NCBI GenBank assembly: GCA_006384855.1
Contig: VCJN01003490.1
Coordinates: forward strand, 124,001 to 188,000
Direction of reading: 5' to 3'
Length of the DNA: 64,000 nucleotides
Origin: Tetraselmis striata
Lineage: Eukaryota; Chlorophyta; Chlorodendrophyceae; Chlorodendrales; Chlorodendraceae
The notes beneath the pieces were generated by a model, which was not told the DNA's origin, searched no databases, and was given only the letters and a program-made list of their open reading frames with translations. Below are positions 17,392 to 62,327 of this stretch, piece by piece (the stretch's first letter is position 1; every line of letters begins with the position of its first letter). The position numbers and the translations under genes were made by a program.

Positions 17392-17840
17392 GGAACACTC
17401 CCCGGTGCTCCTCATTGGCACTCTAGGGGCCACAGCGCACGTAGCGTACCTGGCACGGTCGCACAAGGCAGCAGGGCGCGTGCGGCCGTGCGCTAAGGGG
17501 TTGGCCTGGTCAAACGGGCGGTAGTCGCGGCCGGCAGGGCGAGAGCTGGTCGGCTGGTCCGATCTGTCCTCCGCCCGCCCGGCCGCCGCCCATCTGCCCG
17601 TTGTCGACCGCGAGGAATCCATTTCCGGGCTCCCCAGGGCCAGCCTGCCCCGTCCCAGTACGGTCCACGAAGCCATGGGACGGGTCAGGTCCCAATGGGT
17701 CGGAGGTCGGGCGGACAGCGGACGGACATGTTATGTTCATTTCTGGGGACATTCCCTAATTCTGCCAGGCATACAACGTAATTATGTTGTGTAGTAGTCC
17801 TTATTTGAAAACACCCCACGGACCCTGGCTATGGGGTTCT
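17392..17840. other. No recognisable gene
   Basis: GC-rich DNA up to the left end of the recombinase element at 17841. No motif is visible. Confidence 0.4.
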
Positions 17841-18029
17841 GATGTAAACTAGTTTATGGGGTTTCCTTCCTTTCCCTAACCGCTTTTCGGCTACAAGTGC
17901 TGCTCAGTGGTACGGGAACTAGGCACCTGTCGTTGTGCCCTTTTTGGGTGCGGCACTAGTAGACATAAAAGCAGCCGTAACAACGGAGCTTGCCATATTC
18001 CAGTTATTTTCGCTGCGTTACACGCAGCG
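17841..18029 (+). repeat. A1 terminal direct repeat of the recombinase element
   Basis: 189 bp, beginning GATGTAAACTAGTTTATGGG and ending with the small palindrome CGCTGCGTTACACGCAGCG. Matching copies are at 20810-21005, 62328-62516 and, inverted and interrupted, in 28380-29405. It lies directly upstream of the gag-like gene and may contain the promoter. Confidence 0.8.
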
Positions 18030-18141
18030 ATGTTAAAACCGTCTCGTAACCCGTTGCGAGCAAGGTCACCCCAGGTTGTTCACACCACACCCGGCTCACC
18101 ACCTGTGTGTGAAATTCGCATCCGTACGTCCGAGCGCTACC

Positions 18142-19023
18142 ATGTTCGATGGAGAAGAAGATGCCGTCGTTGAGCCGACGCTTGCATCGCTTCAAGCGGA
18201 CATGAAGGCCCAGTCTACACTGATGCGCGAGCTTGCAACAACGTTAGCTCGATTGACGGCTCGTGACCTTGTTGTTGATGGAGGCGGGGGCACATGGCTC
18301 CGGTTCCGGGCAACGCATCGCGGGACAACCGACATGCAGCGGGGGAGCCGCAGTGCACCCCGACTTGTTAGAGCCAGCCCAGAGCGGCCGTGTCGGAGGA
18401 AATCCGTGAGTGACGAGGATGACTACCTGCTCGCGGTGCCAGAATTACTGCAACGAGCAGAGTCTGGTTACGAGGCCGTTCGACCGGTCAGCCGAGTGCC
18501 TGGACTCTTCCCCCTGAGCACCGACCGACCGAACGAGTACCTCAAGCAGGATGACCGGCGTCTGCCGGCCCAAAAGGAGTATCTTTGGATGTCGTGTTTC
18601 GGTGCCCACATGGCTGAACATTTTGTAGCTCTTGACGAGCTGCTATCCTACGTCCCAACTGCAAGTCAAGACTTCACCCCCTACCTCGCACGTGCTCGGA
18701 ATCACGCCAAGGACATCGACAAGGCGTTTCGCTTTCGTCTGGCTTTCATACGGAGGTTTAATGAGGTCAAACGCCTGCATGGTGATCAAGCTGTTCTGGA
18801 CGTGCTGCGAGCCCAGCATTTTCAGCCTGCTTCTGCGCACTTGGGTTCTGCGATTTTTGGGGAGCTCATGAGGAACTACGAGCGTCGCGTCTCCGAGGTG
18901 ACAGCTGCCAGTAGCGCCAAAGCAACCGCCACTGCTCGAGTAGCGGCAGCAGCAGCATGGCGCGGGCGAGGACGTGGACGTGGTGGTGGTCGTGGGCGTG
19001 GCCGCGAAGGTGAGCACGAGTGA
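18142..19023 (+). CDS. Gag-like protein of the recombinase element (RGG-box C-terminus)
   Basis: 293 residues from the ATG at 18142, chosen because the copy at 62630 begins at the matching ATG (MSDGEEP versus MFDGEED). An acidic N-terminus leads into a heptad-like segment (SLQADMKAQSTLMRELATTL), then a conserved central domain containing VPELLQRAESGYEAV and PGLFPLSTD, and an Arg-Gly tail (GRGRGRGGGRGRGRE) typical of RNA binding. Position and composition suggest a gag/nucleocapsid role, but there is no CCHC knuckle. Roughly three quarters of residues match the 62630 copy, so the gene was conserved while the family moved. The exact family is not recognised. Confidence 0.65.
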   Translation: MFDGEEDAVVEPTLASLQADMKAQSTLMRELATTLARLTARDLVVDGGGGTWLRFRATHRGTTDMQRGSRSAPRLVRASPERPCRRKSVSDEDDYLLAVPELLQRAESGYEAVRPVSRVPGLFPLSTDRPNEYLKQDDRRLPAQKEYLWMSCFGAHMAEHFVALDELLSYVPTASQDFTPYLARARNHAKDIDKAFRFRLAFIRRFNEVKRLHGDQAVLDVLRAQHFQPASAHLGSAIFGELMRNYERRVSEVTAASSAKATATARVAAAAAWRGRGRGRGGGRGRGREGEHE

Positions 19024-19289
19024 CGGTGTGGGGCGCCTTTCGTTGGATCTGCTGGGGCTTTGCGAGGCCACCTTTCTGTGACCGCCGCAAGGCGAACGCT
19101 AGCAGCTCCACGACGGGATGAGCGCCATGTGTCATGACCAGAAGCCCCACCTTACAGACTTCCTTTAGACGCACGACCTTCCTCGGTATGGCGCTTCTTA
19201 CAACTACAGCCGAGTGCGGCTCAACCATCCGCACACCTGCACATGGCGGCTCAACAAACCGCCTTCCGTACCGCCATCTCACCGTTGCG

Positions 19290-20770
19290 TTCGTCAGTCG
19301 GTTGTTTCACGGCGTGTTACAACCGGCTCGCAACGACCAAGCTTCGCGTGTGTACGTTACGCGCGTGACAAGCGCTACGAGCGCGAAGGGGGCGCGGGGC
19401 GGCCCTCCTACCTGCACCTAGCCCCGCAAACCCGTACTGATGCTGTGGCAAACCCGTCCAGTGACTATATCGGCCAACAGCCGGAAACCTAACCGCTGCG
19501 CTGCCGAATATTTTGCTAACATTAACCGCCCCTCTGTTACGCTATCCACCAAGCGCCGCGCTTACGTAGTTAACGAGCCCGAAGATGTTGCCCCTTCGGT
19601 AGCTTCGCTCCGGTCTCGGCTGCATGACGCATTCGGCTCGGACGTGTTGGGACAGCGGACTCTCGATCTACTCTCCAGCTCTCTCACCGCTCAGACCCTC
19701 AAGAGCTACGCCGGCAGACTCTCTCAGTTCGCGCGGAGAGCTGCCACGACTCCGAGAACATCAGCCCGCTGGAGGCGACCACTGCTATTGTCTTCCGGTA
19801 CGTTGCTTGGGTTGGTGAGCGAGGACACATTGGGGCTAAATCGTTGCAGCCCTACCTGTCCGCAATCAACACGTCTTTCGAGCTGCACAACCTCGACCCG
19901 ATCGCTAAGGACAGCCTGCTGCACCTTACCGCAGCTCGTCGTGGACTAATGCTACGGCAGCGCCGGCTGGAGGCTGCCCCTTTGCGAGTCCCCTTGCCTG
20001 CTGATGTCGCTTGCAGCTTCGTCGAGCGGGCAGATAGAGTTGATTGTGTCTGCTCCCACTCCACAGTACCAATACAACCTCCGAGCCCTCGTGGCCTCGG
20101 TTGTCAACTTCATGTTCTTTCCTAGGGGACTTACTGGCGTGTCCTGCCGAGTGCGGGATGTGCATGTCAACGATTACAACATTACCCTGCAGGTGTACCG
20201 CGAGAAAGGCCGCGCTAGTCGACGGGGCCCCGACGACCTGCGCGTGTTGCTCCTTCCTGTGTCAGAACACCCCGCGTTGCACGTCGTCTCATCATGCACC
20301 ACTTCATCGACCGCGTACAGTCTGTTTCCATGGTTCATGTTGCCTTGGCCGAAACAAACTTTTGGGCTGTCACCCCGATCGAGCAGTCCAAATCTTGGAC
20401 CGCCGCTACAATGTCGGACTGGCTCTCTACATACAGCCGTTCGTCTTGTCGGTGCTGCCCCTCCCGCCGGCACTTCATGGACCTCACACAGCCTTCGCTA
20501 GGGAGCAGCGTCTGCCGCTACTAACGCCATCGGAGCTCCACTGTCCCACATTCGCTACCAAGGCGGCTGGGCCCCTAACTCCGACGTTGTTCTGGACTAC
20601 ATCGACCCCAATGTTCTTCCTTCGTCTGGCGCGCATAGTTCTTCTTCGGTCACATCGCGCCCCTGCCTACGCCACTTCCAAGTCCAACAGGACTCCGCAG
20701 CGGTGGCCTTCCCGGTGCCCCCTTCATGACCTGGCGCTACCCCTTCTCCGTCAATCCACCGCTCTCTCCG
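19290..20770 (+). pseudogene. Decayed tyrosine recombinase of the split-repeat element
   Basis: Recombinase sequence is spread over three frames. An N-terminal SAM-like core-binding region is readable around 19560-19960 (LTAQTLKSYAGRLSQFARR, then KSLQPYLSAINTSFELHNLD after a frameshift). The catalytic domain continues around 20080-20230 (NFMFFPRGLTGVSCRVRDV). The C-terminal box reads TSHSLR, then TAG, then GAASAATNAIGAPL and HIRYQGGW. SHSLR supplies the HxxR motif; the TAG at 20499-20501 stands where a lysine is usual. VVLDYID follows where the tyrosine nucleophile is expected. Several frameshifts make the copy inactive. Confidence 0.65.
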
Positions 20771-26522: not shown

Positions 26523-27948
26523 ACAGCAGCCCACAAACGTTTCTGCATGTTTTTATGGGTGTGATTTGGGGTTGGTCGCTTCTAGTCGGTAACCCCACGC
26601 ATAGTCTACGCCGTTGCAGCCATTGCGAGGATAACTATGAAAGAGCGTGCACATGGTGTGCTACGGCCAATGCGACGGCGCGCGTGGCACGCGCGGCGCC
26701 TGTTCTGCGGCACTACCAGTGTAGCAAGTCTTGCACAGCCGGGCTGTGAACGGTTTGAGCGCACGGCACGGTGACATTTGGACGTAAACAACCATGTTTT
26801 TCTCCCATGGTCGCCAAGATACATGTGTTGGCCACCTAGCCCATGCCGCGCGGCGCATGGTTTGGAGTCTATGGTCAGCTAGCGGGCTGCATGCGACATT
26901 TGCAAACTACATCATGTTCGCCCTGCAAGAAGCGGTAGCATTGCAACCACATTTTACTTCATAACATTTTTATCAGGTTGGGCTGTATGTTAGTGCGATG
27001 GAATGCCCGTGACCTGCGTAACCTGAAAGCCCGTTGGAAAGCGCAGGTCACGGGCTTTCCAACACACTAATTGACAGCCCAATGCAATTAAACGTCGAAA
27101 TGTCATGGCATGTTAAAGTTAACCCCCCCCCCCCCCCCCCCCCTGTTCTGGTATCCCAGCCAGCCCACTCACTGTGGATGGGGGCGCATGATGGGGGCAT
27201 GTAATGTGCCCTTCCACGCAAGCTCCCAGGCGCGAGGACCCCTTTGATAGGTCTCCATCGCGCGGACCCCGTCATCATTTTGGCTTTTCCCCTTGGATGG
27301 TGGGTGACATGTGTTACAACATGCGTGCAGAGATGTGCAACAGTGGCGACATTGTTGACGAGGGGCTCGACCAGCCCACGCTTAGCCTACGGTGCGGGCG
27401 GTATAAGCATGCACCTATGCAATCGAAGGCACTTTATGTGTGCTACTTTCACCCAGCAAGGCGGGGCCAGCGGTGCTTATCTTGCAGCTTGGAAAATTGT
27501 GGGATGATTGGCCCCATCACGACGGCGGCATTACTGGCACACTCTCATGGATATGCCATGCATTGCATCGGTAGCGTGCATGGATTGGCATCAAGCTCGG
27601 TCGTCTTACAGCGCATGCATACGTCCACCCACCACCGGCAGCGCGCGGACATATGCGACGGATGGAAACTACGCCGCCAACAAGTTGCCCCCTATTCATC
27701 GCCCGTTTTTTTCTGTGGTTTTAGCCATGTGCCAGACAATGCCATTGCCGAAGAATAATTCTAAAAGTGCGAGAACCGGGAGAAACGGCTGCCTCCTTGG
27801 CGTAGGAGGCTTGCATACCCTATATTACAACGCTCCGTGGCCCCGTGGCCCCATGGCTTAGGCACCAAGGCGAGGATGCGCGCGGATTTCTGTGAGCAAA
27901 GACCTTTGTGGGCTGCTGTATACATTTAGCGTAGCCGTACACAACAAT
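26523..27948 (+). mobile_element. 1.4-kb repeat element, copy A (inverted CAGCAGCCCACAAA ends)
   Basis: Nearly the same sequence occurs at 39263-40657. Both copies begin CAGCAGCCCACAAA and carry its reverse complement, TTTGTGGGCTGCTG, about 20 bp before the right end, which closes with ATTTAGCGTAGCCGTACACAA. This suggests a DNA transposon with terminal or subterminal inverted repeats. A 113-codon frame (27418-27758; 40129-40470 in copy B) is conserved between copies but resembles no protein I know, and no transposase motif is seen. The element contains a long hairpin (26966-27105), and in this copy a run of about 20 C (27122-27143). Confidence 0.6.
26966..27105. repeat. Long hairpin inside copy A
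   Basis: Arms of about 50-60 nt: TATCAGGTTGGGCTGTATGT and what follows pair with the segment ending AATTGACAGCCCAATGCAAT. An inner perfect 14-bp stem, GCCCGTGACCTGCG with CGCAGGTCACGGGC, closes a loop of about 23 nt. Copy B keeps the outer arms but has lost the inner 3' arm. Confidence 0.65.
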
Positions 27949-27993
27949 TCTGTATCACTTTCTACAGGATTTCACAGGCGGATACAGCAAGTA

Positions 27994-28271
27994 TGTATTC
28001 TGTCACTCACGGATTTTGCTCCGACACGGTCGCTCTGGGCTAGCTCTAGCAAGTCGGGGCGCTCTGCGGCTCCCCCGCTGCTTGCCGGCTGTCCCGCGAT
28101 GCGCTCCCCGGAACCGGAGCCATGTGCCCCATCTCCACCAACAACGCGGTCACGAGCCGTCAATTGGGCCAACGATGTTGCAAGCTCGCGCATCAATGTA
28201 GACTGGGCCTTCACGTCTGCGTGTAGCGACTTGAGCGTCGGCTCAACAACGGGTTCTTCTCCATCTGGCAT
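27994..28271 (-). pseudogene. 5' fragment of a gag-like gene (recombinase element, partial copy)
   Basis: Reads MPDGEEPVVEPTLKSLHADV at its start, closely matching the gag-like proteins at 18142 and 62630. It stops matching near 27994, about 45 bp from the 1.4-kb element. Only about the first 90 residues remain. Confidence 0.75.
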
Positions 28272-29405
28272 GGTAACGCACGGATGTACGGATGAGAATA
28301 TCACACTCGAGTGGTGAGCCGGGTGCTGTCTTGAACAATCTGGGGTGACCTTGCCCGCAACAGGTTACGAGACAGTTTTAACATCGCTGCGTGTAACGCA
28401 GCGAGAACTGGAAGATGGGAGGCTCAACTGTTATGGCTGCTTTTATGTCTACTCGTGCTGCACCCCAAAAAGGGCGCAACAACAGTTGCCTAGTTCCCGT
28501 ACCACTGAGCAGCGCCGGCCGGCCGGCCGATGTTGGGCTTTTTGGGTATGGCAGTATCCGCGGGAACACGGTTGCTGTTGATACCACCATTGCCCCTATC
28601 CTCGGCGTGTCAAGCTTGGATCCAACGACTGCTTTGCGGGCTGCAGAGCGCCACAAAATTCAGAAGTATGACGAGGGTGCCCGACGAGGGTGTCTGACGA
28701 GGGTGATCCAACGCCGCTGGCATGCTTCGCTTTGTTCCTTTCGCCGTTTCCGAGTTCGGCTCGCTGGACCCGCACGCCGAGGCTTTCTTGGTGGAGCTCG
28801 CGAAAGCTAGCCACACACACACTGGCCAAAAACTCGGCCAACTCTTTTTTTTCTCGCCCCCGGGACAGGACTGGCACCAGTGAAACCCTTGCAGCGTCTC
28901 TACGACGGCCGTTTAGGCAGCAATCCAGTTACGGAAGCCCTGGGTAGGCGACGCTCTAGCTCTTGTCTGCGTGGCGCCGCCGTTTCTCCTTGCTCATCAA
29001 CATGGCACATGCAGACAACGGTCTTGGCGGGGTCGCGGCCGCGCGTGCGGCACGTGATGGTGCGTCGCGTCGCTCGTCGGCATGTGTTGCTATGACCTGG
29101 GTCATTGGCTGCAAGCGTCCTCGCCGCGGCTGATAGCCTACCCCGGGGCGGGGGTCCCTTTGGTTCCTGGCAGCTAAGCGACTTCGTGGTTCCCTTGGCT
29201 CCTTCTTGGTTCTTGGCTCCCTGTCCTCCTGCTCGACCTTGGTTTCAGGCTTATGTCTCTCTTTTGCTGGCAACCTTTCATAGTTGCTGTTAGTTCTGTT
29301 TGTGGTGCGCATTTGTGGAAGCCCTGATGTAATAAATAACTGAGCAGCACTTGTAGCTGAAAAGCGGTTAGGTCAAGGGAGGAAACCCGTAAACTAATTT
29401 AGATC
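28272..29405 (-). mobile_element. A1 repeat and leader of a partial recombinase-element copy, split by a LINE
   Basis: Read on the minus strand, 29405 to 29339 and 28513 to about 28385 together form the 189-bp A repeat; the gag leader follows. The 28514-29338 segment between them is an insertion flanked by the 10-bp duplication ACTGAGCAGC (28504-28513 and 29339-29348). Confidence 0.75.
28514..29338 (+). mobile_element. 5'-truncated non-LTR retrotransposon (LINE family 1)
   Basis: An 825-bp insertion with a perfect 10-bp target duplication and an A-rich 3' end (GATGTAATAAATA). The first 300 bp encode, with frameshifts, the tail of a LINE ORF2-like protein: ALRAAERHKIQKYDEGARR, then FVPFAVSEFGSLDPHAEAFL. 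No reverse-transcriptase core remains. The 3' UTR from about 29100 recurs inverted at 29828-30033, and its last part at 47150-47220, defining a family. The truncation and target duplication fit target-primed reverse transcription. Confidence 0.65.
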
Positions 29406-30338: not shown

Positions 30339-30483
30339 AAAATTACATGAGCTAGCAGCAGAAGGCGATATCGGAAATCACCAAAGAAAAGGGCAATCAG
30401 AAAGGCCCTCTACATCGACTGCGGGGTGGAAGCAGCAACATGAGAAGACGTGGAGTGGGCACGAGCACACGCATCAGACTTGG
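30339..30483 (-). mobile_element. LINE family 2, 3' part (left of the Ty3 insertion)
   Basis: Holds the end of the reading frame (stop codon at 30412-30410 on the minus strand) and a 3' UTR ending TCATGTAATTTTTA. That 3' end recurs at 16524-16575 and 47075-47110. It is bounded on the left by the 17-bp duplication at 30322-30338. It continues the fragment at 37163-37713. Confidence 0.65.
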
Positions 30484-30895
30484 TGTTAGGCTCTAGCTTA
30501 AGCCTGTTCTTTAGGCCCTTTAGGATGCAGCGGAAGGATTTAGAAAGTATGGCCAATCTCTTCTGGTTACAGGGGTTCCTGGGTTATAGTTCTGTCTCTG
30601 AATTCTGCCTAGTAGACTTGTCCGAGGCGGTATTTATACCCGCCGAGGTCATAGTCATACCTGTGCTATGTTAGCCGGGTGTCATGGGATACCCGTGCTG
30701 TGTTAGCCACGTAAGGCTTGAGTCAGAGAACTCTAGAGAATTCCAGAACAGTCTTCGGCCTTATACTACTAATATTTACGCCCGCAATACTAATATGTAC
30801 AGCGACTCCGCGGATGCGTAGTCGTACTACCTTTGCGGGGGTTATACCTGCTAGTATAGCAGAACATTATGGCTATAGGGAAATGGAGTATAACA
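30484..30895 (-). repeat. 3' LTR of the Ty3 element
   Basis: 412 bp, TGTTAGGCTCTAGCTTAAGC at the left and ending TATAACA. Matches 36751-37162 without a difference I can see. Confidence 0.93.
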
Positions 30896-30906
30896 CTCTC
30901 TCCCCC
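30896..30906 (-). promoter_or_regulatory. Polypurine tract of the Ty3 element
   Basis: Reads AAGGGGGAGAG on the minus strand, directly against the 3' LTR. This is the expected place for plus-strand DNA priming. Confidence 0.75.
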
Positions 30907-30981
30907 TTAAGCACAAGCGTCCTCGCTGTGCAGGTGTCACAGAACTACAGGAAACTACAGTCTTGGTCTTGATTCTGAAGT

Positions 30982-33900
30982 TCAGGCGGAAGGTACTCGG
31001 CTTGGGTAGCGATTCCGGAACCGAATGAAGTCTGGGCTCTCAGTAAACTGTCGGTATGGTTTAGACAGTAAGAACGACCGGAAAATGTCCAGGTGCTTGA
31101 CTCCGCGTAGGGGCTCCCAGGTGTCTTCGCTTGGTACGTTGTACGGGAACGCCCATCGCACTCGAAACAGTAGTCCAGTGCCATTGTTGTTGAAGGCAAC
31201 ATCGAGTATGTCCTGAACATGGAATCGGTTTGCGTCATGGACAATCGGTACTCGTTCAGACTTCGCCGGTTGGTCAGGGTTGTCATACCACTTCTCCAGC
31301 ATACTCGCGTGCACCACGTCGTGGACTCGTACGCCCGCAGGTAGTTGCAATCGGAAAGCAACTGGTGAGATCTGCTCTGTAATGACGAAGGGGCCCACGT
31401 AGCGATCGCGTAGCTTAGCACAGGGTTGCTGAATAAACTTCAGATGAGACGCCTTCAGCTTAACTCTGTCGCCGGTCTTGAATGGTACGGGTAGTCGTTT
31501 ACGATTAGCTGCAGTCTGCATACGAGTTTGAGCCTCCAGTACGCAATCATGCGCGAAGCGATGAAGCTCCTGTACATACTTGACGTGTTCCGGAAGAGCT
31601 CGAGTCGGCTCGGTTGCGAGTTGAGTAGTAGCAGGTGTAATCGGCTCGAATCCCAAAGTCGCCTTGAAAGGGGACATAGTAGTCGAAGTCGACTGAGCAG
31701 CGTTGATCGCAAACTCCACGTTGGTGAGGTGGTTGACCCAATCATCGTGCAGGGGGTGCACGTAGCAGCGTAGCTCTTGCTCCCAAGTTTGGTTAGTGCG
31801 TTCCGTCTGGCCATCGGTTGCTGGATGAAAAGCTGTAGAGATGTTCAGCTTAGTACCCATGGTCTTGAACATATTTTGCCAGAATTCCGACATAAATCTG
31901 GGGTCTCGGTCAGAGATGAGTTTAGCCGGTAGGCCGAAATGACGAAAAACTGAGCGATGCATAATCTCCGCCAGGCCTTCAGCAGTAACTGTCTTCGTAG
32001 TTGGCTCAACAATTACTCGCTTTGACAGTAGACATACGAAAATCACTACTGAGTCATACCCCTGGCACTCCGGAAGATCTGTGATTAAATCCAGGGATAT
32101 TACCTCAAATGGTCGTGACGGTACGTCATGGGGCTGAAGTAAGCCGTATGGCTTATGCCGGGCCGCCTTAGTACGTTGACAGGTAGGGCAGCGTCGCACG
32201 TAGTTAGTGACAGTCTGTTTCATACGGGGCCACCAGTACAGTTCCACAGTACGCGCCAGTAGTCGTCGTCCTCCTGGGTGTCCAGCAGTAGGCGCGTCAT
32301 GTAGTTCGTACAGTGCTCGTTGTCGCAGGTCCGCCACATTTGGTACGTAAAGTCGTGAGCCGTAGGCGTACAGTAGACCATTACTGTGACGTACTAGCCA
32401 GGATGGTAAAGCCTTCCGCGATTTCAAGTACTCGTCGGAGTCATATGCGGTCTTGATTTTGTCATAAAACTTGTTGTCCGCCTGTAGTCGCGACTCCATA
32501 GCAAATAAAACTGAATTTATTTCGCAGTCAGCCTCGTCTTCTGACCAGTTGTTCAGCAGATCTAGCTTCTGTAGCGCATCCTTCAAGTCGGGTCGCCGAG
32601 AGAGGGCGTCCGCATGATTGGCAGCTCCTCGCTTGTAGACGATGTCCATATGTCGTTGGTAAGGCGCAAACACTTGCAGCCATCGTACTTGCCGCGTCGA
32701 CAAATCGCGTTGGCGAAAGAAGTGCCGTAGCGTGTCATGGTCGGTGATGACCGTAAAGCCCGCCGCTCCATCAAGGTAGCATCGGAACTTGATGAGTGCA
32801 TCACGAACCGCTAACAACTCTTGCTCATGTACCGGGTAGTGAACTTCGTGTTTGTTCATCTTGCGTGCATGGTACGCGACAGGTCGAAGTCCTGAGCCTT
32901 GATCTTGCAGCAGCACAGCTCCCACTGCAAATCCAAAAGCATCTGTATACAATGTGTAACGGGCGTCCGCAGATGTGTCCGGTATACTCAGTACAGGTGC
33001 TCGTACCATTGCGTCCTTTAATGCACGAAACGCCGCATCAGCACGAGGCGTCCACACAAACTCCGGTTGATTCTTCGTCAGGTCATGTAGTGGCGCCGCA
33101 ATAGCCGCGAAGTTATGGATGAACTTGCGGTAATAGCCAGCAAGGCCGAGAAAACCTCGTACGTCCTTTACTGTCTTCGGCACGGGCCACTGTTGAACTG
33201 CTTCCACCTTCCGGGGGTCCATCTTGATCTGTCCTGCTTCGACGATATGCCCCAAAAACTCCACGCTAGTACGGCCGAACGAACACTTCGACAGCTTGAT
33301 ATGCAAGTGGTGTCGTTGCAACTCCCGTAGCACCAATCTGATGTGCTCGAGATGCTCTTCAGCTGTCTTGCTGTAGATCAGCACGTCGTCCAGGTATACC
33401 ACGCAGAATTTGCCGAGATATGGGCTCAAAACACGGTTCATCATGGTCTGGAATCCAGGGGCGTTTGTCAAGCCGAAGGGTAACACACAGTACTCGTAGA
33501 GTCCATAGTGTGTCCGGAACGCTGTTTTGTGGATGTCTTCCGGTTTAATTCGTACTTGATGGTAGCCTTTATACAGGTCCAGAGTACTGAAAATAGTCGC
33601 ACCATGCAATGAGTCCAATAATTCGTCGATGCGAGGAAGCGGGGTCCGGTCTTTCTTCGTAAGGTCATTCAATTTACGGTAGTCCACACACATACGCAGA
33701 GTGCCGTCTTTCTTACGCACAAATAAAATTGGGGCGCCGTAGTTTGACTTGGACGGACGAATCCACCCTTTTGCCAACAATTCCTCCAATTGTGACCGTA
33801 CCTCCTGCAACTCCGCTGGTGACATACGGTACGTTCGTTCCTTGGGGGGTTCATCACTCTCCAGGTTGATCTCAAAGTCGAACTCGCGCTCCGGTGGCAG

Positions 33901-35571
33901 GTCAGTGTGGGGCTCCGCGATGATGTCTGCAAACTCCATAAGGGACTCCTTGAGCTCCTCAGTCCACTCGGTCGACTGGTCCGTGCGCAGCTCAGCTACC
34001 GCATCGAACACCTCGCGTACCGCAACAGCAAGCAGTTCCTCGCCGCGACTCTTCCTCAGCTCCTTCGCCATCTTAGCCGCGTCCAGATGGTGAACCGTCG
34101 TAGGTACTGTATACTGTTCCGCTGTAGCAATGTGTTGTCCAGTCTTCCGGTGTTTGATAATTTTAGCAGTCCAGTCAATGTCAGGATTAACTGTTTCCAG
34201 CCAAGGGTGTCCGAGAATAATGTCGAATTTCTCCAGGTCTGTAACTATAGCGTCCAATTTATAGTCGAAAGCTCCTACGGTGAGTACTTCGCTCCTCAGC
34301 CGTTTGGTACTGGTACTCATACTGCCGTTTGCCAGTTTTATACGGTGTTTTCCTCCGGATACTGTAGGGCACTGATGCAATTGCACCCATTCGGTACTCG
34401 CAAAATTTTCGGTTGCACCAGAGTCCACCAGTATTTTACAGTGTCGTCCTCGCAATTCGCCAGTAATAGTCAGCAGTCGGGTACCACTCGGTGAAGATAC
34501 GTTGCACAAACGCGATGTGGAGTCTTCGCCAGGTAGTCGGACGTTACGGTTGACATATTCATCAATTTGTTCGCCGAAGCTTTCGTACCGTAGTGGGTAG
34601 CGTACTGTCTCCGTCTCCAGATAACCCGTACTTCGTGCCTCCAATAATTTCTTCCATGTTGTCCATAGTGCACGGTTCAAAGGGGTTTTCGCAGGTACAG
34701 TATTACGACGAACGCGATACAGGTATACAGGACACCGGTTGTCTCCCGTCCGCTGAGTGCCGAGGTACCGTAGATTGCTCTCCTGTACCCGGTACCCAGT
34801 TTGCTCGAGTAATCGTCGTACTGCTGTTGTCTCCGGCGTCGCGTCCGTGTCGCCCCGCTTGCCTTCTGGAAACCAAATCAGTCCGCTGTCTTCTACAGTC
34901 AGAAGCACTCGCCTTCCATCGGTTACTAGAACCTTCGAGTGCGTCCACTCAGGCTTCGGTGGGGTTCTCAGGTGCTGCGGTAGAAACCGTACGCCGGCGC
35001 CATCGTCAGCGTAGATCTGTGTCGCCCATCGAGTGGGGCCAACATCTTGTCTCGCACCTTCTATGCCATCGTTCGTTGGACACGTAAACACAGAAGTCTC
35101 CGCTGGCAACTCATCCACCAGACGAAAATTTCTCAGTAGTCGAAACCACGGCTTACGCGACCATTTTGGGACCACAATAATTGCTCGTAGATGCGGATGC
35201 AATAACTTCTGTCGAAGGTAGTGGCCCAAAAATTCTTCAATTCGGTCATACGGGGCATTTAGCCAAATACGCCGATATTCTCCGAGATCCTGTTCCTGAA
35301 ATGGGCGCGTCGGACAGCAAAAACTACCAGAAACTTGAGAATTCAGGCCGTCATTATCGCAAGCTCCGTCCAGGTCGCAGGGTCCGTATTTCTTCGTGTA
35401 CTCGTGAAATAATTCGCGATGTACCATCCAGTCGCTGAAATCCTTGTGGAGGAAATCAGGCCTCAGTGTCGTTCGAGGATACGAGGGCTGTACTTCTGTA
35501 GTCTCGCGAGCCGTTTTAGGGGACAGTCCTTCACCCTGTCGCGCGCCGCGCGCGGCCGACTCACGTCTTAG
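30982..35571 (-). CDS. pol: Ty3 Pol polyprotein with methyltransferase-like and Nudix-like N-terminal domains
   Basis: Open from 35571 (CTA directly after the frameshift site) with 48 codons before the first ATG at 35427, then 1481 residues (numbering from that Met). Domains in order: a Dam-like methyltransferase-like module (about 10-115, WLNAPY at 55-60, then IIVVPKW); a Nudix-like module (about 160-240, PEGKRGDTDATPE then RRLLEQTGY); aspartic protease (DSGA, 335-338); reverse transcriptase (about 530-720, YLDD 678-681); RNase H (TDA near 829, TDH near 897, HADALS near 940); integrase with zinc-binding H1043, H1050, C1080, C1083 and catalytic D1113, D1173, E1209; and a chromodomain (about 1400-1452, FRVRWAFPYN, DTWEPL). 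The two N-terminal modules are not part of standard Ty3 Pol. The Nudix box keeps only some catalytic acidic residues, and NAPY differs from the NPPY motif, so both may be non-catalytic. Confidence 0.92.
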   Translation of the reverse strand, partial: LRRESAARGARQGEGLSPKTARETTEVQPSYPRTTLRPDFLHKDFSDWMVHRELFHEYTKKYGPCDLDGACDNDGLNSQVSGSFCCPTRPFQEQDLGEYRRIWLNAPYDRIEEFLGHYLRQKLLHPHLRAIIVVPKWSRKPWFRLLRNFRLVDELPAETSVFTCPTNDGIEGARQDVGPTRWATQIYADDGAGVRFLPQHLRTPPKPEWTHSKVLVTDGRRVLLTVEDSGLIWFPEGKRGDTDATPETTAVRRLLEQTGYRVQESNLRYLGTQRTGDNRCPVYLYRVRRNTVPAKTPLNRALWTTWKKLLEARSTGYLETETVRYPLRYESFGEQIDEYVNRNVRLPGEDSTSRLCNVSSPSGTRLLTITGELRGRHCKILVDSGATENFASTEWVQLHQCPTVSGGKHRIKLANGSMSTSTKRLRSEVLTVGAFDYKLDAIVTDLEKFDIILGHPWLETVNPDIDWTAKIIKHRKTGQHIATAEQYTVPTTVHHLDAAKMAKELRKSRGEELLAVAVREVFDAVAELRTDQSTEWTEELKESLMEFADIIAEPHTDLPPEREFDFEINLESDEPPKERTYRMSPAELQEVRSQLEELLAKGWIRPSKSNYGAPILFVRKKDGTLRMCVDYRKLNDLTKKDRTPLPRIDELLDSLHGATIFSTLDLYKGYHQVRIKPEDIHKTAFRTHYGLYEYCVLPFGLTNAPGFQTMMNRVLSPYLGKFCVVYLDDVLIYSKTAEEHLEHIRLVLRELQRHHLHIKLSKCSFGRTSVEFLGHIVEAGQIKMDPRKVEAVQQWPVPKTVKDVRGFLGLAGYYRKFIHNFAAIAAPLHDLTKNQPEFVWTPRADAAFRALKDAMVRAPVLSIPDTSADARYTLYTDAFGFAVGAVLLQDQGSGLRPVAYHARKMNKHEVHYPVHEQELLAVRDALIKFRCYLDGAAGFTVITDHDTLRHFFRQRDLSTRQVRWLQVFAPYQRHMDIVYKRGAANHADALSRRPDLKDALQKLDLLNNWSEDEADCEINSVLFAMESRLQADNKFYDKIKTAYDSDEYLKSRKALPSWLVRHSNGLLYAYGSRLYVPNVADLRQRALYELHDAPTAGHPGGRRLLARTVELYWWPRMKQTVTNYVRRCPTCQRTKAARHKPYGLLQPHDVPSRPFEVISLDLITDLPECQGYDSVVIFVCLLSKRVIVEPTTKTVTAEGLAEIMHRSVFRHFGLPAKLISDRDPRFMSEFWQNMFKTMGTKLNISTAFHPATDGQTERTNQTWEQELRCYVHPLHDDWVNHLTNVEFAINAAQSTSTTMSPFKATLGFEPITPATTQLATEPTRALPEHVKYVQELHRFAHDCVLEAQTRMQTAANRKRLPVPFKTGDRVKLKASHLKFIQQPCAKLRDRYVGPFVITEQISPVAFRLQLPAGVRVHDVVHASMLEKWYDNPDQPAKSERVPIVHDANRFHVQDILDVAFNNNGTGLLFRVRWAFPYNVPSEDTWEPLRGVKHLDIFRSFLLSKPYRQFTESPDFIRFRNRYPSRVPSA

Positions 35572-35577
35572 TTTCCC
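35538..35577 (-). promoter_or_regulatory. Programmed -1 ribosomal frameshift site between gag and pol
   Basis: The heptamer GGGAAAC (35577-35571) fits the X-XXY-YYZ slippery consensus and sits in the gag frame as G-GGA-AAC, directly before gag's TAA. Slipping back one base gives GGG-AAA-CTA, exactly the pol frame, which stays open for 48 codons to its first ATG. Ten nucleotides downstream, 35560-35538 can form a GC hairpin (outer GTCG/CGAC, inner GCCG-CGCG-CGGC), the usual stimulator. Confidence 0.85.
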
Positions 35578-36602
35578 GGCCGGGTCTTTCTGGGTCGATA
35601 TTCAGAAATCTTCTTCTTCTTGCTCGGGCACGCGGACGCAACATGACCTTTCGCCCTGCAGGTAAAGCAGCGACCTTCCTTCTTAAATCTCTCAAACTCC
35701 TCCTCGGTCAATCGCCGCGCCATCAACAGGTCGTCTTCTTGTTCTGTAGCTTCACCCTCAGCACTGCTGTAGTACTGCTCGTCGTCGTCGCCATCGTCGT
35801 CCATGATGTTTAGGCGCTCGCGACGGATCTCGCGGTGCACATCTGTCTCCCGCTCCGCAGCTTCAACAGCCAGGGCTGCCTGTACAGCTTCTGCCAGGGT
35901 CTTAGGGTTTTTCAGGGCAACCTCCTTTCGAATATGGGGTTTCAGTCCGCGCTGGAAGTCATGTACATTATCTTCCTCGTGACGATGTGGTAACTCCAGT
36001 AGTTGCTCGCGGAAATAATTCGCGTACTTCTGTACTGTAGTCCGCTGTGTCGCGCGATCCAGATTGATACGAGCTTGCTTCGCCGGTGTACGTCCACAGA
36101 ATTCGGTGATTAGTGCCGCCTCCATATGCGTAATACCGGTAAAACCGCCGCCAATTTCGTCGTGCGTACTCGCCACTTGCGCGTACCACCACTTGGATAC
36201 AGGTCCGTGAAAATAGCCAGATGCCCAGTACACGCTACGAGGTTCCTCCGGGTTTACATTGTGATATTTCAGGTAACCCCGTGCATGACGAAACCAGTTC
36301 CGTAGCTCGTCGATATTCGTAGTCGATAGCTTCTCGATCTTCGCTGGTTTCACATCGCTCGGCATGAGCCCAGGCATGTCGCTGGTCCGGGCAGAACGAA
36401 GCTGGTCTCGCATCTGCTGCTCTACAACTCGGCTCCGGTTCACTCGGTCGTCGAAATGACTGAAGCCTTGTCGCACGTACTCGTCCAAGCGGCGAATCTC
36501 CGCCGTTGCCGCCGTTGTAGCTTGCGCTACATCTTGCATCTTCGCTTGCTCCGTCGACATAGTTTCGACTCGGTCGGCTAGTCGTTGAAGCATGCTCATC
36601 AT
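35568..36602 (-). CDS. gag: Ty3 Gag polyprotein
   Basis: 344 residues from the ATG at 36602; no earlier in-frame ATG is visible although the frame is open upstream. An N-terminal coiled-coil-like region (MLQRLADRVETMSTEQAKMQ) leads to a capsid domain of the retrotransposon-gag type (LRNWFRHARGYLKYH, KWWYAQVAS, FCGRTPAKQARINLDRATQ). Next come an acidic linker and one CCHC zinc knuckle (C312, C315, H320, C325; spacing 2-4-4) in a basic tail. It assembles the particle and packages element RNA. The stop overlaps the frameshift heptamer used to make Gag-Pol. Confidence 0.93.
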   Translation of the reverse strand: MMSMLQRLADRVETMSTEQAKMQDVAQATTAATAEIRRLDEYVRQGFSHFDDRVNRSRVVEQQMRDQLRSARTSDMPGLMPSDVKPAKIEKLSTTNIDELRNWFRHARGYLKYHNVNPEEPRSVYWASGYFHGPVSKWWYAQVASTHDEIGGGFTGITHMEAALITEFCGRTPAKQARINLDRATQRTTVQKYANYFREQLLELPHRHEEDNVHDFQRGLKPHIRKEVALKNPKTLAEAVQAALAVEAAERETDVHREIRRERLNIMDDDGDDDEQYYSSAEGEATEQEDDLLMARRLTEEEFERFKKEGRCFTCRAKGHVASACPSKKKKISEYRPRKTRPGN

Positions 36603-36734
36603 GTCTGCGAGGGTCGGTTGCGTGCCCTCTTGACCTCCTTCGAGCGGAATCGGCTGTGCTTCGCCGGTAGTGGCCGCTGTCCTCAGGTGGTGTCTCTCCT
36701 GGTGTAGCCATCTTTACGTCGCTTACCGCTGTCT

Positions 36735-36748
36735 AAGCTCCGAAACCA
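36735..36748 (-). promoter_or_regulatory. Primer-binding site of the Ty3 element
   Basis: Two bases after the 5' LTR the minus strand reads TGGTTTCGGAGCTT. It starts with TGG, as needed to pair with a tRNA 3' CCA, and resembles the initiator-tRNA-Met type TGGTATCAGAGC. The primer tRNA is inferred. Confidence 0.6.
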
Positions 36749-36750
36749 AG

Positions 36751-37162
36751 TGTTAGGCTCTAGCTTAAGCCTGTTCTTTAGGCCCTTTAGGATGCAGCGG
36801 AAGGATTTAGAAAGTATGGCCAATCTCTTCTGGTTACAGGGGTTCCTGGGTTATAGTTCTGTCTCTGAATTCTGCCTAGTAGACTTGTCCGAGGCGGTAT
36901 TTATACCCGCCGAGGTCATAGTCATACCTGTGCTATGTTAGCCGGGTGTCATGGGATACCCGTGCTGTGTTAGCCACGTAAGGCTTGAGTCAGAGAACTC
37001 TAGAGAATTCCAGAACAGTCTTCGGCCTTATACTACTAATATTTACGCCCGCAATACTAATATGTACAGCGACTCCGCGGATGCGTAGTCGTACTACCTT
37101 TGCGGGGGTTATACCTGCTAGTATAGCAGAACATTATGGCTATAGGGAAATGGAGTATAACA
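36751..37162 (-). repeat. 5' LTR of the Ty3 element
   Basis: 412 bp, same as 30484-30895. Promoter and polyadenylation signals of the element should lie here; I did not assign them. Confidence 0.93.
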
Positions 37163-37713
37163 CTTGGCCATCTGCACACCGGCAGAGAGAATGCCGCCCA
37201 GAATACCATGCACGCAAGCCGAGACCCGCTGCAACAGCCCCCGCCGTGTGCGCGACAGGTGACGGCGGAACTCAGCAGGTTGGCTGGCGACAAAGTTCCG
37301 AAGTGCCTGAACGGATTGACCACGAAGAAAGCAAGAGGTCGGGGCGGAAGGACCGCCAGGGAAGTTGCGCACAGCCAACGGCACCGCGAAGATGTAGACC
37401 ACCGTCAAAGCGGCGAGACGGCCGCGGTCCTCAACCACAAAAGGGTAGTACCGGTGAACACCCTGCACTGGGGCGGAAGACGCCCGGTCCGCTGCCAATT
37501 TAGCATGCTCCGCCTCGGTCGCCGCGATTCCCGGGATGCACCAGCGGGGGTCGTTGCTCCAAGTGGGGGTCGTGGAGGACACGCACGCGAAGTCGATCAT
37601 GTAATCGCATGCCGCCCCCCCCCCCCTTACCCCGCCAGCGTCAGGTCCGACGGCCGCGAGCGGTCCGCTGGGCGCAGCCCACTCGTCTCAAGGGTCAAGC
37701 AAGTCGCCGGCTC
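37163..37713 (-). pseudogene. LINE family 2, truncated ORF (right of the Ty3 insertion)
   Basis: A minus-strand frame from 37600 runs to the Ty3 junction and, with the Ty3 element and one CTTGG removed, continues in frame through 30483-30410 to a stop. It holds HRYYPFVVEDRGRLAALTVV and SVQALRNFVAS, resembling the tail of a non-LTR retrotransposon ORF2; no reverse-transcriptase core is present. The outer ends carry the 17-bp duplication CGGAATCCTTAACACTA (30322-30338 and 37714-37730), which supports retroposition. The family call is an inference. Confidence 0.55.
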
Positions 37714-38040: not shown

Positions 38041-39262
38041 TGTTTGTATTGGGTTGCTGGGGTGCTATGAGCTGTGCATTTGTGCAGGCAGGTGACACCA
38101 GTGTGAGATGCGGATTGTAAAAAAACCAATATTACATGTTGATGTGATGTCTACGCCCCTTGCCCATCCGGCCTCATCACGGCCAGCCATGCTAAGTACA
38201 TATGCATTCTAACACATCACATGACGAAGCGGTTGTTGGTGGACGCCTCCTCATCAGCACGCTCCAAGGCGGGCATCTGCTCCTCCTCCTCACTCCAGCC
38301 AGGTAGCGCTCTAGCGCCGATCCCTCCTGCTCACTGATGTCAAGCAGCCCCTCACATGCTACTGCCTCGATGGCGCGCGCCTCATCCAGCTCCGATGGGA
38401 TCGTGATGCCAGTGGCAAGGAATGCAACCTTGAACATGTCCGGGCCCATTTTCTCCTTGAGGATGGAAGATATCTCCGTGGACTCCACGTTCTTGGTGAT
38501 GAAAACCTTACCGGACATCATCTCCACGCCCATTTTGTTACCGACGCAAGTGCAGGGTGACCAACCCGCCTGCTAAAGAGAATACCTGCTACGCGCTCAC
38601 ATTCTATCTGACTAGCAGGAATGCAAAGAATAAGACGAGCTAGCTGAGCCACAATGGGGTAGAGGCCGGCATTAGTCTTCCACCAATGCAAGAGGGAAAC
38701 GCCGGGCGCAAAGCCGCTACCTTGCCTCATGGTCTTGGCGGCGGCGTAGTACCGTGCCCAGTTGTCCTTCACCAGTACCTGCTACCGGTGCTGCCGCGCC
38801 AACTCATCAGTTCTCCGGCATCCAGTAGTTCACTATCGTTCATCATGCCAATCTCCTCAGGCCGATTGGCAGGGGCTGGCGCAGTATTATCAGCATCATC
38901 CGGTGCAACAGGCGCAAGGGGCTGCTTCGCAGTCTGCATGGTGTTGTCCATATCGTATAGTGTCGGAACCATCACCTCCTCCGTGTTCCTCATCACAAGG
39001 GCAGCCGCTGCTGATGCAGCAATCTTGGCCTTTGCCTCGTTACTTACCAGTCTTGGCAGACACGCCATGCATGTAAATGACGCCCCCAACCAAGCGACGG
39101 TCCAACATGGTTGCTATTAACTCATGCCCAAGTTCATGACTGCACGCGTGGAAGGGTTTAAGCATGGAATCGACACCCAACAGGATGCGGTCCGTCAAAG
39201 CGTCAGTCATCTTGTAGATGTCAACTCTCGGCCTGCATAATATATGACACACACACACACAC

Positions 39263-40657
39263 AGCAGCCCACAAAAGTCTATGCATGTTTTTATAGGTAT
39301 TCTAGTTTGGGGTTGGTCGCTTTTAGTCGGAAACCCCACGCATAGTCTACGCCGTTGCAGCCATTGCGAGGATAACCATGAAAGAGCGTGCACATGGTGT
39401 GCTAGGGCCAATGCGACGGCGCGCGTGGCGCGCGCGGCGCTTGATCTGCGGCACTACCAGTGTAACAAGGGTTGCACGGACGGGTTGTGAACGGTTAGTT
39501 TGAGCGCACGACACGCCGACATTTGGACGTAAACAACCATGTTTTTCTCCCATATATAGTCGCCGAGATACATGTGTTGGCCACCTAGCCCATGCCGCGC
39601 GGCGCATGGTTTGGAGTCTATGGTCAGCTAGCGGGCCGCATGCGACATTCGCAAACTGGGTGATGTTCACCATACATAACGCAAGAAGCTGTAATATTGC
39701 AATCACGTTTTAATTCATAACATTTCGACGTTTTATCAGGTTGGGCTGTAAATTAGTGCGATGGAATGCCCGTGACCTGCGCATTCCAACACACTAATTT
39801 GCAGCTCAATCCAATAAAACGTCGAAATGTTGTGGCATGTTAAAGTTTCCCTTGTTCTAGTATCCCAGCCAGCCCACTCACTGTGGGTGGGGGCGCATGA
39901 TGGGGGCATGTAATAATGTGCCCTTCCACGCAAGCTCCCAGGCGCGAGGACCCCTTTGATAGGTCTCCATCGCGCGGACCCCGTCATCATTTTGGCCTTT
40001 CCCCTTGGATGGTGGGTGACATGTATGTGTTACAACACGTGCGCAGACCTATGCCGCAGTGCCGACATTGTTGTTGAGGGGGCCAGCCCGCGCTTAGCCT
40101 ACGGTGCGGGCGGTATTAGCATGCACCTATGCAATCGAAGGCACTTTATGTGTGCTACTTTCACCCAGCAAGGCGGGGCCAGCGGTGCTTATCTTGCAGC
40201 TTGGAAAATTGTGGGATGATTGGCCCCATCACGACGGCGGCATTACTGGCACACTCTCATGGATATGCCATGCATTGCATCGGTAGCGTGCATGGATTGG
40301 CCTCAAGCTCGGTCGTCTTACAGCGCATGCATACGTCCACCCACCACCGGCAGCGCGCGGGCATATGCGACGGATGGAAACTACGCTGCCAACAAGTTGC
40401 CCCCTATTCATCGCCCGTTTTTTTCTGTGGTTTTAGCCATGTGCCAGACAATGCCATTGCCGAAGAATAATTCTAAAAGTGCGAGAACCGGGAGAAACGG
40501 CTGCCTCCTTGGCGTAGGAGGCTTGCATACCCTATATTACAACGCTCCGTGGCTCCGTGGCCCCATGGCTTAGGCACCAAGGCGAGGATGCGCGCGGATT
40601 TCTGTGAGCAAATACTTTTGTGGGCTGCTGTATAGATTTAGCGTAGCCGTACACAAT
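39263..40657 (+). mobile_element. 1.4-kb repeat element, copy B (inside the hAT transposase)
   Basis: Near-duplicate of 26523-27948, sharing both ends. It lies directly between the hAT VVKDGGGNL codons and a (TG)n/acceptor-like stretch, so it inserted into the transposase gene or one of its introns. It lacks copy A's C run and part of the hairpin's inner stem. Confidence 0.65.
39719..39831. repeat. Hairpin inside copy B
   Basis: About 50-nt arms starting AACATTTCGACGTTTTAT and ending with its complement near 39831, around a 13-nt loop. It corresponds to the hairpin in copy A but has lost the inner 3' stem and loop. Confidence 0.7.
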
Positions 40658-47561: not shown

Positions 47562-49479
47562 ATGGCCAAAGGTCTCCGCACGGCGGCGTTCGCAGTCGCG
47601 TCTCTACTCCTCCTTCAGGCAGCACTTGCAAATCCTGGCAAAGGGAACGGAAAAGGCCCCCCGGACGGGCGTGGCGTCGGCGGTGGCAGTGGTCTTGCCA
47701 ACGGACACGGCCACGCGAACGAGGCAGCTATCAATAAGGGTGAGTCCCGCTCGGTTTTGGCGTTGCTACGTTGTTGCTACCAACGCTCCGCTGTCCCGCA
47801 GCAAAACGCGTGCTCCGCACTAAAGAGGCTCGCGCAGTTCCACTGACAACAGGTTGGTTGCCGCGCATACAGACGTACCAGGGCTTATCGATGGCTGCCT
47901 TGCCCCGGACTACGACGGGATCAAGGCATTCTTTGGAATCGAGTACGCCGAAAAGCAGGTGGCCAAGGGGCTCTTGAAGAAACCCGATCGTGATGAGCCG
48001 TCGACTCGGGGGACCACGGGTATCGAGAGCTGGCTGTGGAGGGACAACGTTGGCAGTGACGGCGTCATCCAAATTCCTTACGTAAGCTTACTCACTGCGT
48101 ACTCACATGTCTCCACATGCTTGTCGGTGTGCCGAGAGCTGCGATGCCGTGTTTGCGCACAACCTGACATGCCGATGCTGAAAGTGATTTGCTTGTTTGC
48201 CCAGGTTTTCGCGGAAGGCCACGAGTTCCCGGCCGATCAAGTGGCTACTATCAACAACGCGTTTGCGGCCCTGGGCGACTCCGTCGGCATCCTCAACTTC
48301 CGTCCGAAGCAGGCCAGCGACCCCAAGTGGATCAGCGTCCAGGGTACTGCCAACTCAGGATGCTGGTCATACATCGGCCAGTCCAGCCTCGCCAGCGGCG
48401 GCCAGCCTCTGAATCTCCAGCCGAATGTGAACGGATGGGGATGTGTCTGGACAGGCACCATTCAGCACGAGATGATGCACGCACTGGGCTTCTACCACGA
48501 GCAGTCTCGCCCTGACCGGGACGACTATGTCACCATCCTGTTCGACAACATCACACCTGGCAAGGAGCACAACTTTGAGAAGTCGTCCAACATCAACAGC
48601 ATGGGCAGCACCTACGACTACGGCTCCGTGATGCACTACGGCAGGACAGCCTTCGCCAAGGAGAGCGGCTTGACGACAATCGATTCCCACGGCAACTCCA
48701 TAGGCCAACGCAACGGCGCAAGCGCCTCAGACGTCGAGCAGATTCGCCTGCTGTACCAGTGTTCCTTCGGAGTGCGCGGTCTCGCTTCCTACCTCGCTGA
48801 ACCCTGCACTGCGGACTGCAAGTGCGCCGAAGGTATGACGGGCTGCGGTGGCAACGACGACGCCTGCCACGGAAGTCTCGTCTGCTCGGTCGACACCTGC
48901 ACAGCCGCTGCGCCGACTCTATCTCCCACGCCGGCCCCGACCCCAGCGCCTACAGCAGTGCCAACTCCCGCTCCTACAACCGCGGCTCCTACCCCGGCCC
49001 CCACTCCGGCGCCAACCCCTGCCCCAACTCCAGCGCCGACCCCTACACCGACTCCCGCTCCTACAACCTCGGCCCCCACTCCGGCGCCAACGCCCGCACC
49101 CACTTCGGTGCCAACGACCGCTGCGCCAACCCCGGCTCCAACTCCGGCGCCAACCCCGGCTCCCACTCCGGCGCCAACCCCCGCCCCAACTCCGCCGCCG
49201 ACTCCTGCACCGACTCCCGCTCCGACAACTGCGGCTCCTACCCCGGCTCCCACTCCGGCGCCAACCCCTGCCCCAACTCCAGCGCCGACTCCTGCACCGA
49301 CTCCCGCTCCTACAACCGCGGCTCCTACCCCTGCACCCACTCCGGCGCCAACGCCTGCCCCAACTCCAGCGCCGACACCTTCGCCCACCCCCGCCTGTGG
49401 CCTGCAATCCGCATTCTGCACTCAGAAGAGCGACTGCTGCTCCAACAAGTGCAACAAGAAGCATGGCTGCATGAATTAG
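47562..49479 (+). CDS. Secreted astacin-family metalloprotease with Pro-Thr repeat stalk and C-terminal knottin-like domain
   Basis: Three exons, 47562-47739, 47873-48081 and 48205-49479, with GT-AG borders and consistent phase; 553 residues. A signal peptide ([16 protein letters not shown]) and Gly-rich propeptide precede the M12A catalytic domain. Zinc-binding [11 protein letters not shown] (217-227) is followed by the astacin [10 protein letters not shown], and the Met-turn SVMHYG lies further on. A Cys-rich segment (about 325-355) links to a long stalk of PTPAP / TTAAPTPAP repeats (about 48910-49390), probably extended and glycosylated. The last 26 residues hold six cysteines spaced 6-5-0-3-5, a knottin-type pattern. 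It probably acts at the cell surface or in the wall matrix; the substrate is unknown. Repeat-rich DNA here is prone to length change. Confidence 0.85.
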
Positions 49480-61458: not shown

Positions 61459-62327
61459 GCTGAACACCACGCGGCTGCACCCTGGGCTGTGCGTATCTGT
61501 CAGTTGGTCTGCCAACTTGTTTCCCTCGTAGTGTAGCCAACTCCGGAGGCGCAGTGGGCGTCGGGTAGGTTGCTGTGAGTCCGTCGGCGTACCTGCTCAA
61601 GTCTCTACCGCGACTCGACGACTCTACGTTTTACCTGCGATGAGGGGGCTACCTGTAGCAGCAAGCTACCGTACGCACTGGTAGTCGCTACTCAACTCAA
61701 CGCACGTACCTGTACCAGACGCGGCGGCACCACCAGATCGCGATGACAATCCCGCGGCCACGTGGCGCCATCCACGTGAGTATCGGTAGGGCATAAAGTT
61801 AGGTTTTTCACTACTCTCGCTATTTTGCGGGAGTTTATTATTCGCACATCGAATAGTCGTAATTGCACATGCTGTACGAGGATCAACCTGAGCCTGCGCG
61901 GGCGTGACCGTTTGAGTCCTTAAAGCGTGCCTGAAAAAAGCCGGAATCCTAATGTCGATCGACATTTTACTTCCGAGAAAAACGCAAAAATCAATATCGC
62001 TAGGTAAGGATTATAGCGCGCCGGCAATCCAGGCATGCTTCCGCATGCAACACCATGCTTTGGGGCGGCTTCGGCCGATGTCCCGGGCAAACCTTACTTA
62101 ACTTTTTACCATGCTTGCGTCGTCGCTAGTTAAGAAAATTATAATCATGGTAATGCTTAAATGTACAAAGTCACTATCCCAGCCGAAATAATTTACGTGG
62201 TCGCTATTATTACCGAATACTCGCTATAATTCCAGGGGTTTAGTACCAGCATAGCAAAACTTTTCACATATCTTTTGTCGCAGACAATCAGTACGAGACT
62301 ACCACTCGTATGAGAAGGCGAACATAT
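61459..62327. other. 5' flank of the NHL/EGF gene and intergenic DNA
   Basis: No gene seen. 62063-62105 is a SINE 3'-end remnant (GGCGGCTTCGGCCGATGTCC and a CTTTTTA-type end). Confidence 0.4.

Follow-up and report, generated by a model that had tools for sequence, protein, structure and literature searches.

A Ty3 retrotransposon lineage with a Dam-like methyltransferase fold and a Nudix fold at the start of Pol in Tetraselmis striata

Introduction

Why does a Pol protein of the Ty3 type begin with some 310 residues that precede the protease and are not standard Ty3 sequence, and what might these residues do? The element in question lies in a 64,000-nucleotide stretch of the Tetraselmis striata contig VCJN01003490.1, here called the window. 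A preliminary description of this stretch, made from its letters, had proposed that the extra residues comprise methyltransferase-like and Nudix-like domains that are maintained.

LTR retrotransposons are held to fix extra domains only rarely in the available part of one report, which describes an AlkB m6A demethylase in orchid Ty3/Gypsy elements (PMC9289625). Dam methyltransferases are carried by DIRS elements according to the available parts of two further sources (PMC3783388, PMC3266345), the second of which terms the role of the DIRS Dam-like methyltransferase unknown. Cytosine methylases in retrotransposons are described in the accessible portion of another paper (PMC5890265). Among the papers listed in our searches of open-licence PMC, we found no published description of a Nudix domain in a retrotransposon Pol or of a Dam-like domain before a Ty3 protease.

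Results

A complete Ty3 element on the minus strand

The window carries a complete Ty3 element of 6,679 bp on its minus strand. The 5' LTR (36751..37162, minus strand, 412 bp, TGTTATAC...CCTAACA) is identical to the 3' LTR (30484..30895, minus strand, 412 bp), and its ends were fixed by the target site duplication CCAAG, the upstream copy of which lies at 37163..37167 and the downstream copy at 30479..30483. Because the LTRs are identical, the sequence suggests a recent insertion. A putative primer binding site, TGGTTTCGGAGCTTAGACA (36730..36748, minus strand), was assigned from its position adjoining the 5' LTR, and the polypurine tract AAGGGGGAGAGAG occupies 30896..30908 (minus strand).

The Gag ORF (35568..36602, minus strand, 344 aa) encodes a Ty3 capsid-like domain (Pfam PF19259, 34.7 bits against a cut-off of 29.1) and a zinc knuckle whose match falls under its Pfam cut-off. 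Pol occupies an open frame at 30982..35601 (minus strand), which is shifted by -1 with respect to gag; from its first ATG at 35427 to the stop ending at 30982 it encodes 1,481 aa. Pfam matches, all on the minus strand, place the aspartic protease (RVP_2 / Asp_protease_2) at residues 321-424 (34156..34467), the reverse transcriptase (RVT_1, E 8.4e-36) at residues 570-729 (33241..33720), RNase H at residues 792-923 (32659..33054) and the integrase zinc finger and core at residues 1033-1202 (31822..32331). The integrase C-terminus (residues 1319-1445, 31093..31473, minus strand) combines a Tf2-type SH3 domain, for which SH3_Tf2-1 exceeds its Pfam cut-off, with a weak chromodomain-like match: Chromo scores 15.4 bits in the window (cut-off 25.1) and 28.4, over the cut-off, in the related element P0004.

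The LTRs with their 5-bp target site duplication, the polypurine tract, the order protease, reverse transcriptase, RNase H, integrase and the Ty3-type Gag capsid are those of Ty3/Gypsy (Metaviridae) elements with a chromodomain-like integrase end, from which the window element differs by the roughly 310 extra Pol residues before the protease.

Other repeats surround the element. A pair of direct repeats (26523-27944 and 39261-40656, 88-96% identical, about 12.7 kb apart) encloses it, as if the Ty3 element had landed in an older repeat-flanked one. A further repeat (17840-19528 and 62327-63972, 84% identical) has partial, inverted copies near the Ty3 element (pieces 27986-28513), and its 295-315 aa ORF has no Pfam match at E 0.01. 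Elsewhere in the window, 47854-49476 encodes an astacin-type metalloprotease with long PAPTPAPT repeats.

A Dam-like methyltransferase fold with an altered motif IV

The motifs on which the preliminary description rested, WLNAPY (residues 55-60), IIVVPKW (83-89) and PEGK...RRLLEQTGY (187-212), are all present in Pol, and the structure predictions match both of the folds that it had proposed for this non-Ty3 N-terminus, a Dam-like methyltransferase and a Nudix domain.

The first fold spans residues 1-141 (35005..35427, minus strand) and was modelled with AF2 at pLDDT 86.6 and pTM 0.81. Pfam Dam (PF05869) matches residues 4-96, with E 8.5e-5 and 22.7 bits, below the cut-off of 28.1, when the N-terminal 342 residues are searched alone, and with E 5.2e-4 when the whole Pol is searched. 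Among 14 relatives, the same family scores over the cut-off in two (P0003, 30.2; P0017, 34.4) and below it in nine, and is unlisted in three. The best solved structural match of the model is PCIF1, including entries bound to capped RNA, with a score (Z 11.5) that is only about 1 unit above that of the next family (10.3). The shared fold, as modelled, says nothing about the function of the Dam-like part.

Canonical methyltransferase motif IV reads [DNS]PP[YFW], and in adenine methyltransferases the target amino group is contacted by the Asn/Asp side chain and by the main chain of the first proline. In the window the motif reads LNAPY (residues 56-60, 35248..35262, minus strand), as it does in 69 of 70 genome copies, the remaining one having LNAPN. 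None of 17 readable rows has the canonical form; by hand count they comprise NAP[YF] (11), HAPY (2), HPPY (1) and others (3), with the aromatic residue kept in 17/17 and the Asn in 13/17. Of these rows, P0017, P0018, P0021 and P0022 do not reach the region of the Nudix box, and P0019 stops short of the box itself. Outside them, P0005 has NPPF, and one truncated genome copy, L054, has NPPY. Over 17 aligned rows D18, D20 and W89 do not vary and N29, V86 and P87 hardly do, and the DxD...N pocket residues are retained. Given the contacts made by the Asn/Asp and first-proline backbone, the NAPY variant need not be catalytically dead, while HAPY probably is; since the motif is canonical in none of the 17 rows, catalysis may also have been lost in the Dam-like part.

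A Nudix fold with a degenerate box

The second fold covers residues 157-300 (34528..34959, minus strand) and is recognized both by structure prediction and by Pfam NUDIX, with E 3.6e-6 and 27.5 bits (gathering score 21.1) for the N-terminal 342 residues alone and E 5.5e-5 for the whole Pol. Four relatives score 50.4 (P0002), 42.4 (P0004), 42.0 (P0007) and 29.7 bits (P0012), and ten of the 14 scanned have no match at E 0.1, among them P0005, which lacks the Nudix region, and several truncated sequences. An artefact of a random ORF was ruled out by the Pfam scores in the window and its relatives together with the fold match.

Active Nudix hydrolases carry the box GX5EX7REUXEEXGU. The window box, PEGKRGDTDATPETTAVRRLLEQTGY (residues 187-212, 34792..34869, minus strand), has lost three of the four box glutamates, in agreement with the earlier suggestion that some catalytic residues are missing. 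The box loop is one residue longer in P0004, in which all four glutamates are present, the only such case among 14 readable rows. By hand count, RExxEE is retained in three of these rows (P0002, P0004 and P0007) and lost in 11, through forms as varied as RRLLEQ, RALLDG, RALTET, REVFEI and RTVSTL. Because the losses differ in form, it looks, from these alignments, like Nudix catalysis has been lost repeatedly with the fold kept. Non-catalytic Nudix domains are familiar from NrtR and the C-terminal domain of MUTYH.

The structural matches include NUDT12, Dcp2, NudC and RppH, and those to NUDT14, MutT, MUTYH and ADP-ribose pyrophosphatases are equally good; NrtR also appears. Judged on the model, the matches are thus non-specific for RNA enzymes. 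When a profile was built from five relatives, its best match was NudJ/YmfB (E 4e-4), followed by the B. subtilis RNA pyrophosphohydrolase (9e-4). The top NCBIfam match is an RNA deprotection pyrophosphohydrolase, which scores 16.9 bits where the cut-off is 154.4; searched as a single sequence against the PDB, the domain reaches E 0.094 at best.

A conserved leader upstream of the first Pol ATG

Ahead of its first ATG the Pol frame stays open as far as 35601, and it overlaps the end of gag (35568). The 58-residue leader ahead of the ATG is conserved in relatives: by eye, a similar leader (PAGK...ESAARG...DFSDW) stands before the Dam-like part in P0006, P0018, P0021 and P0022, and a less close one in P0014. 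Because this leader is also conserved, Pol probably starts by a -1 frameshift from Gag and not at ATG 35427, and expression as a Gag-Pol fusion is likely. In P0022 a tail that looks Gag-like by eye continues into the Dam-like part in a single frame.

Many copies under purifying selection

The host genome holds at least 123 copies of the N-terminus, and a later search with the Nudix-protease piece gave at least 150 matches. A stop falls within the matched region in only five of the 123 copies, which rules out an old pseudogene region; in 49 rows, by hand count, the open frame measures precisely 1,539 aa, one of them also scored with a stop.

To assess selection we compared 70 of the 123 copies, including the window, a non-random sample made up of the 30 best-scoring and 40 hand-picked from the other 93 with a preference for long frames. 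Changes common to at least two copies stand at nonsynonymous to synonymous ratios of 1:9 in the Dam-like part, 10:10 in Nudix and 3:13 in the protease. Single-copy changes are near neutral (25:11, 44:14 and 36:18, respectively). Fisher tests of shared against single-copy changes give p 0.001, 0.048 and 0.001 in the same order (three tests, uncorrected), and the shared changes are not independent because the copies are related. Depletion is milder in Nudix than in the other two domains (10:10 against about 2.1:1 expected), and six nonsynonymous Nudix changes are common to at least three copies. The one diverged copy found, L064, is truncated and 79% identical to the window; over 206 codons, mostly Nudix and the start of the protease, dN is 0.120, dS 0.358 and dN/dS 0.33, and part of this change may be neutral because L064 is truncated. 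Together, the substitution patterns indicate purifying selection that is strong on the Dam-like part and moderate on Nudix, so the claim that the domains are maintained holds more clearly for the former than for the latter.

Distribution and order of acquisition

The protein searches, which detect only relatives sharing short exact words, recovered the whole Dam-Nudix module in P0001-P0004 (P0001 being a partial Pol), together with 17 shorter N-terminus fragments, some clearly decayed. With the genome copies, these place the N-terminus well beyond a single element, in keeping with the preliminary description. P0005 has the Dam-like part and no Nudix.

Identities for the Dam-like part, Nudix and protease are 55%, 55% and 54% between the window and P0004, and 64%, 56% and 49% between the window and P0001; among these three elements the two extra domains evolve no faster than the protease. 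Against P0003, Nudix is far less conserved (24%, protease 43%), and its Nudix region is alignable yet goes unrecognized by Pfam.

The same genome contains a second Ty3 family (L061, L062, L111); in L061 and L062 a Dam-like match, at 23.7 bits (below the cut-off) with the motif NPVY, precedes the protease, and there is no Nudix. A 1,534-aa frame occurs in eight of the 150 PF05869 matches listed (hand count), of which L061 is the one that was read, and the frame of L062 has 1,466 aa. In a reverse transcriptase tree of seven Pols, the window forms a group with P0001-P0004 (support 99/99) from which P0005 and the second family are separate; all seven have the Dam-like part, and Nudix occurs in the five that group together. 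The Dam-like part is probably ancestral and older, with Nudix gained once, later. Because the tree is rooted only at its midpoint, with the second family on a long branch, Nudix may alternatively have been lost from the second family and from P0005.

DIRS-like Pols, classed by domain order, occur in the same genome with Dam after RNase H. Among 30 loci (L031-L060, 30 of the 150 PF05869 matches listed), Nudix follows Dam only in L054, within the pieces read. Some of these DIRS-like Pols (L055, L057, L059 and L060, with a 696-aa frame) read NAPF, so that alanine at the first proline of motif IV recurs outside Ty3. Short ORFs at three other loci (L039, L041 and L043, frames of 193 aa) give a Dam match of another, phage-like kind (VNPPF), and the part read shows no recognizable adjoining RNase H. 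No branch of the Dam tree is starred, and the tree neither supports nor contradicts a derivation of the Dam-like part from DIRS or a special kinship with YR Dam domains; the proposed resemblance to methyltransferases of YR elements stands at the level of the PF05869 family match.

Scans of viral and genome contigs for a stand-alone or viral Dam-Nudix donor gave 3, 28 and 11 pattern-matching stretches and no confirmed relative. A sponge sobemo-like virus protein of 1,454 aa (BFVD A0A221LFJ1) is annotated as 8-oxo-dGTP diphosphatase and is perhaps a case of Nudix in another polyprotein.

Discussion

We consider it fairly probable that, in a Ty3 lineage whose integrase end is chromodomain-like, Pol starts with an inherited Dam-like or PCIF1-like fold followed by a Nudix fold, with the following roles. 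The Dam-like part would have been acquired first and Nudix afterwards, and the module would be made inside Gag-Pol through the -1 frameshift. Within the particle, the Dam-like part may still bind SAM and nucleic acid, and it may bind or methylate adenine in the element's own cDNA or at its RNA 5' end. The window Nudix would have no catalytic role and would act instead as a partner that binds nucleotides or RNA, or as a scaffold, and related elements such as P0004 may retain an active one.

We regard each of two alternatives as unlikely. According to the first, it acts on RNA 5' ends, of the element or of host mRNA, pairing a PCIF1-like cap-adjacent methyltransferase with a Nudix that decaps or removes 5'-pyrophosphate. 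The PCIF1 match with its capped-RNA entries, the NUDT12, Dcp2, NudC and RppH matches and the profile and NCBIfam hits to RNA pyrophosphohydrolases all point this way, but the matches to NUDT14, MutT, MUTYH and ADP-ribose pyrophosphatases are just as good, the NCBIfam score lies far below its cut-off, the best single-sequence PDB match has E 0.094, and the window box is broken. According to the second, the module methylates adenines of element cDNA or host DNA with Nudix as a passenger. PF05869 is the DIRS methyltransferase family in the available part of PMC3783388, DIRS-like Pols with CNPPF occur in the same genome, and Dam is more constrained than Nudix; against this, motif IV is altered (NAPY, HAPY) and Nudix is also under constraint. 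The PCIF1 likeness and the Dcp2/NUDT12/RppH-type matches also led us to a bolder proposal, which we rate as less likely still: that the Gag-Pol of one Ty3 lineage acquired a built-in module for handling RNA 5' ends, made of a cap-adjacent adenosine methyltransferase and a decapping-type Nudix, and that in several descendants Nudix gave up catalysis and came to read the RNA end or a nucleotide signal.

It seems improbable that the module, coupled to reverse transcription, cleans the nucleotide pool in the manner of retroviral dUTPase. The module directly precedes the protease, MutT-type matches are present and the P0004 box is intact, but 11 of 14 readable rows, the young, high-copy window family among them, lack RExxEE, so the elements can spread without Nudix activity. 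The activities raised in the preliminary description (on dNTP pools, caps or ADP-ribose) would accordingly suit relatives such as P0004 better than the window Nudix, which has lost most of its box. Least probable of all is a decaying hitchhiker without present function: neither active site is intact, loss of the Nudix box took several forms and the Nudix selection signal is borderline, but shared nonsynonymous changes are depleted in both domains, 118 of 123 copies have no stop in the matched region, and within the window-P0001-P0004 group identity is near protease level, with dN/dS at 0.33 for the window and its diverged copy.

Several known systems resemble parts of this arrangement. The DIRS-type YR methyltransferase shares the PF05869 match and, by eye, a [WYI]xNxP[YF]...P.W core; it follows RNase H, in elements that have a tyrosine recombinase, whereas in the window element the Dam-like part stands before the protease and the integrase further along Pol is of the retroviral type. 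At motif IV the window reads NAPY and the L032-type DIRS-like Dam NPPF, the L057 type also having NAPF. With PCIF1/CAPAM, the cap-specific adenosine N6 methyltransferase, the modelled Dam-like part shares the methyltransferase fold but only 15-20% identity in the aligned part, with the rest of PCIF1 missing and motif IV altered. Nudix proteins (NUDT14, NUDT12, Dcp2, RppH and NudJ) share the fold and the Pfam match, although the element's box loop is one residue longer and the catalytic glutamates are mostly gone in the window. Retroviral dUTPase lies beside the protease in betaretroviruses, in Pol or Pro; it is likewise a nucleotide-metabolism fold next to a protease, but the folds are unrelated and the window adds a methyltransferase-like partner. 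The orchid elements are likewise Ty3 elements that gained a nucleic-acid-modifying domain; theirs is a different one, AlkB, in an additional ORF and reported active in vitro in the available part of that source (PMC9289625).

On the reading we favour, one lineage has kept a methyltransferase-like and Nudix pair while its protease fell to 41-54% identity, and catalytic residues changed repeatedly while the pair was kept. The elements form a natural series, from Dam only through Dam with an intact Nudix box to Dam with a broken one, which lets one test why retroelements carry Dam-like methyltransferases.
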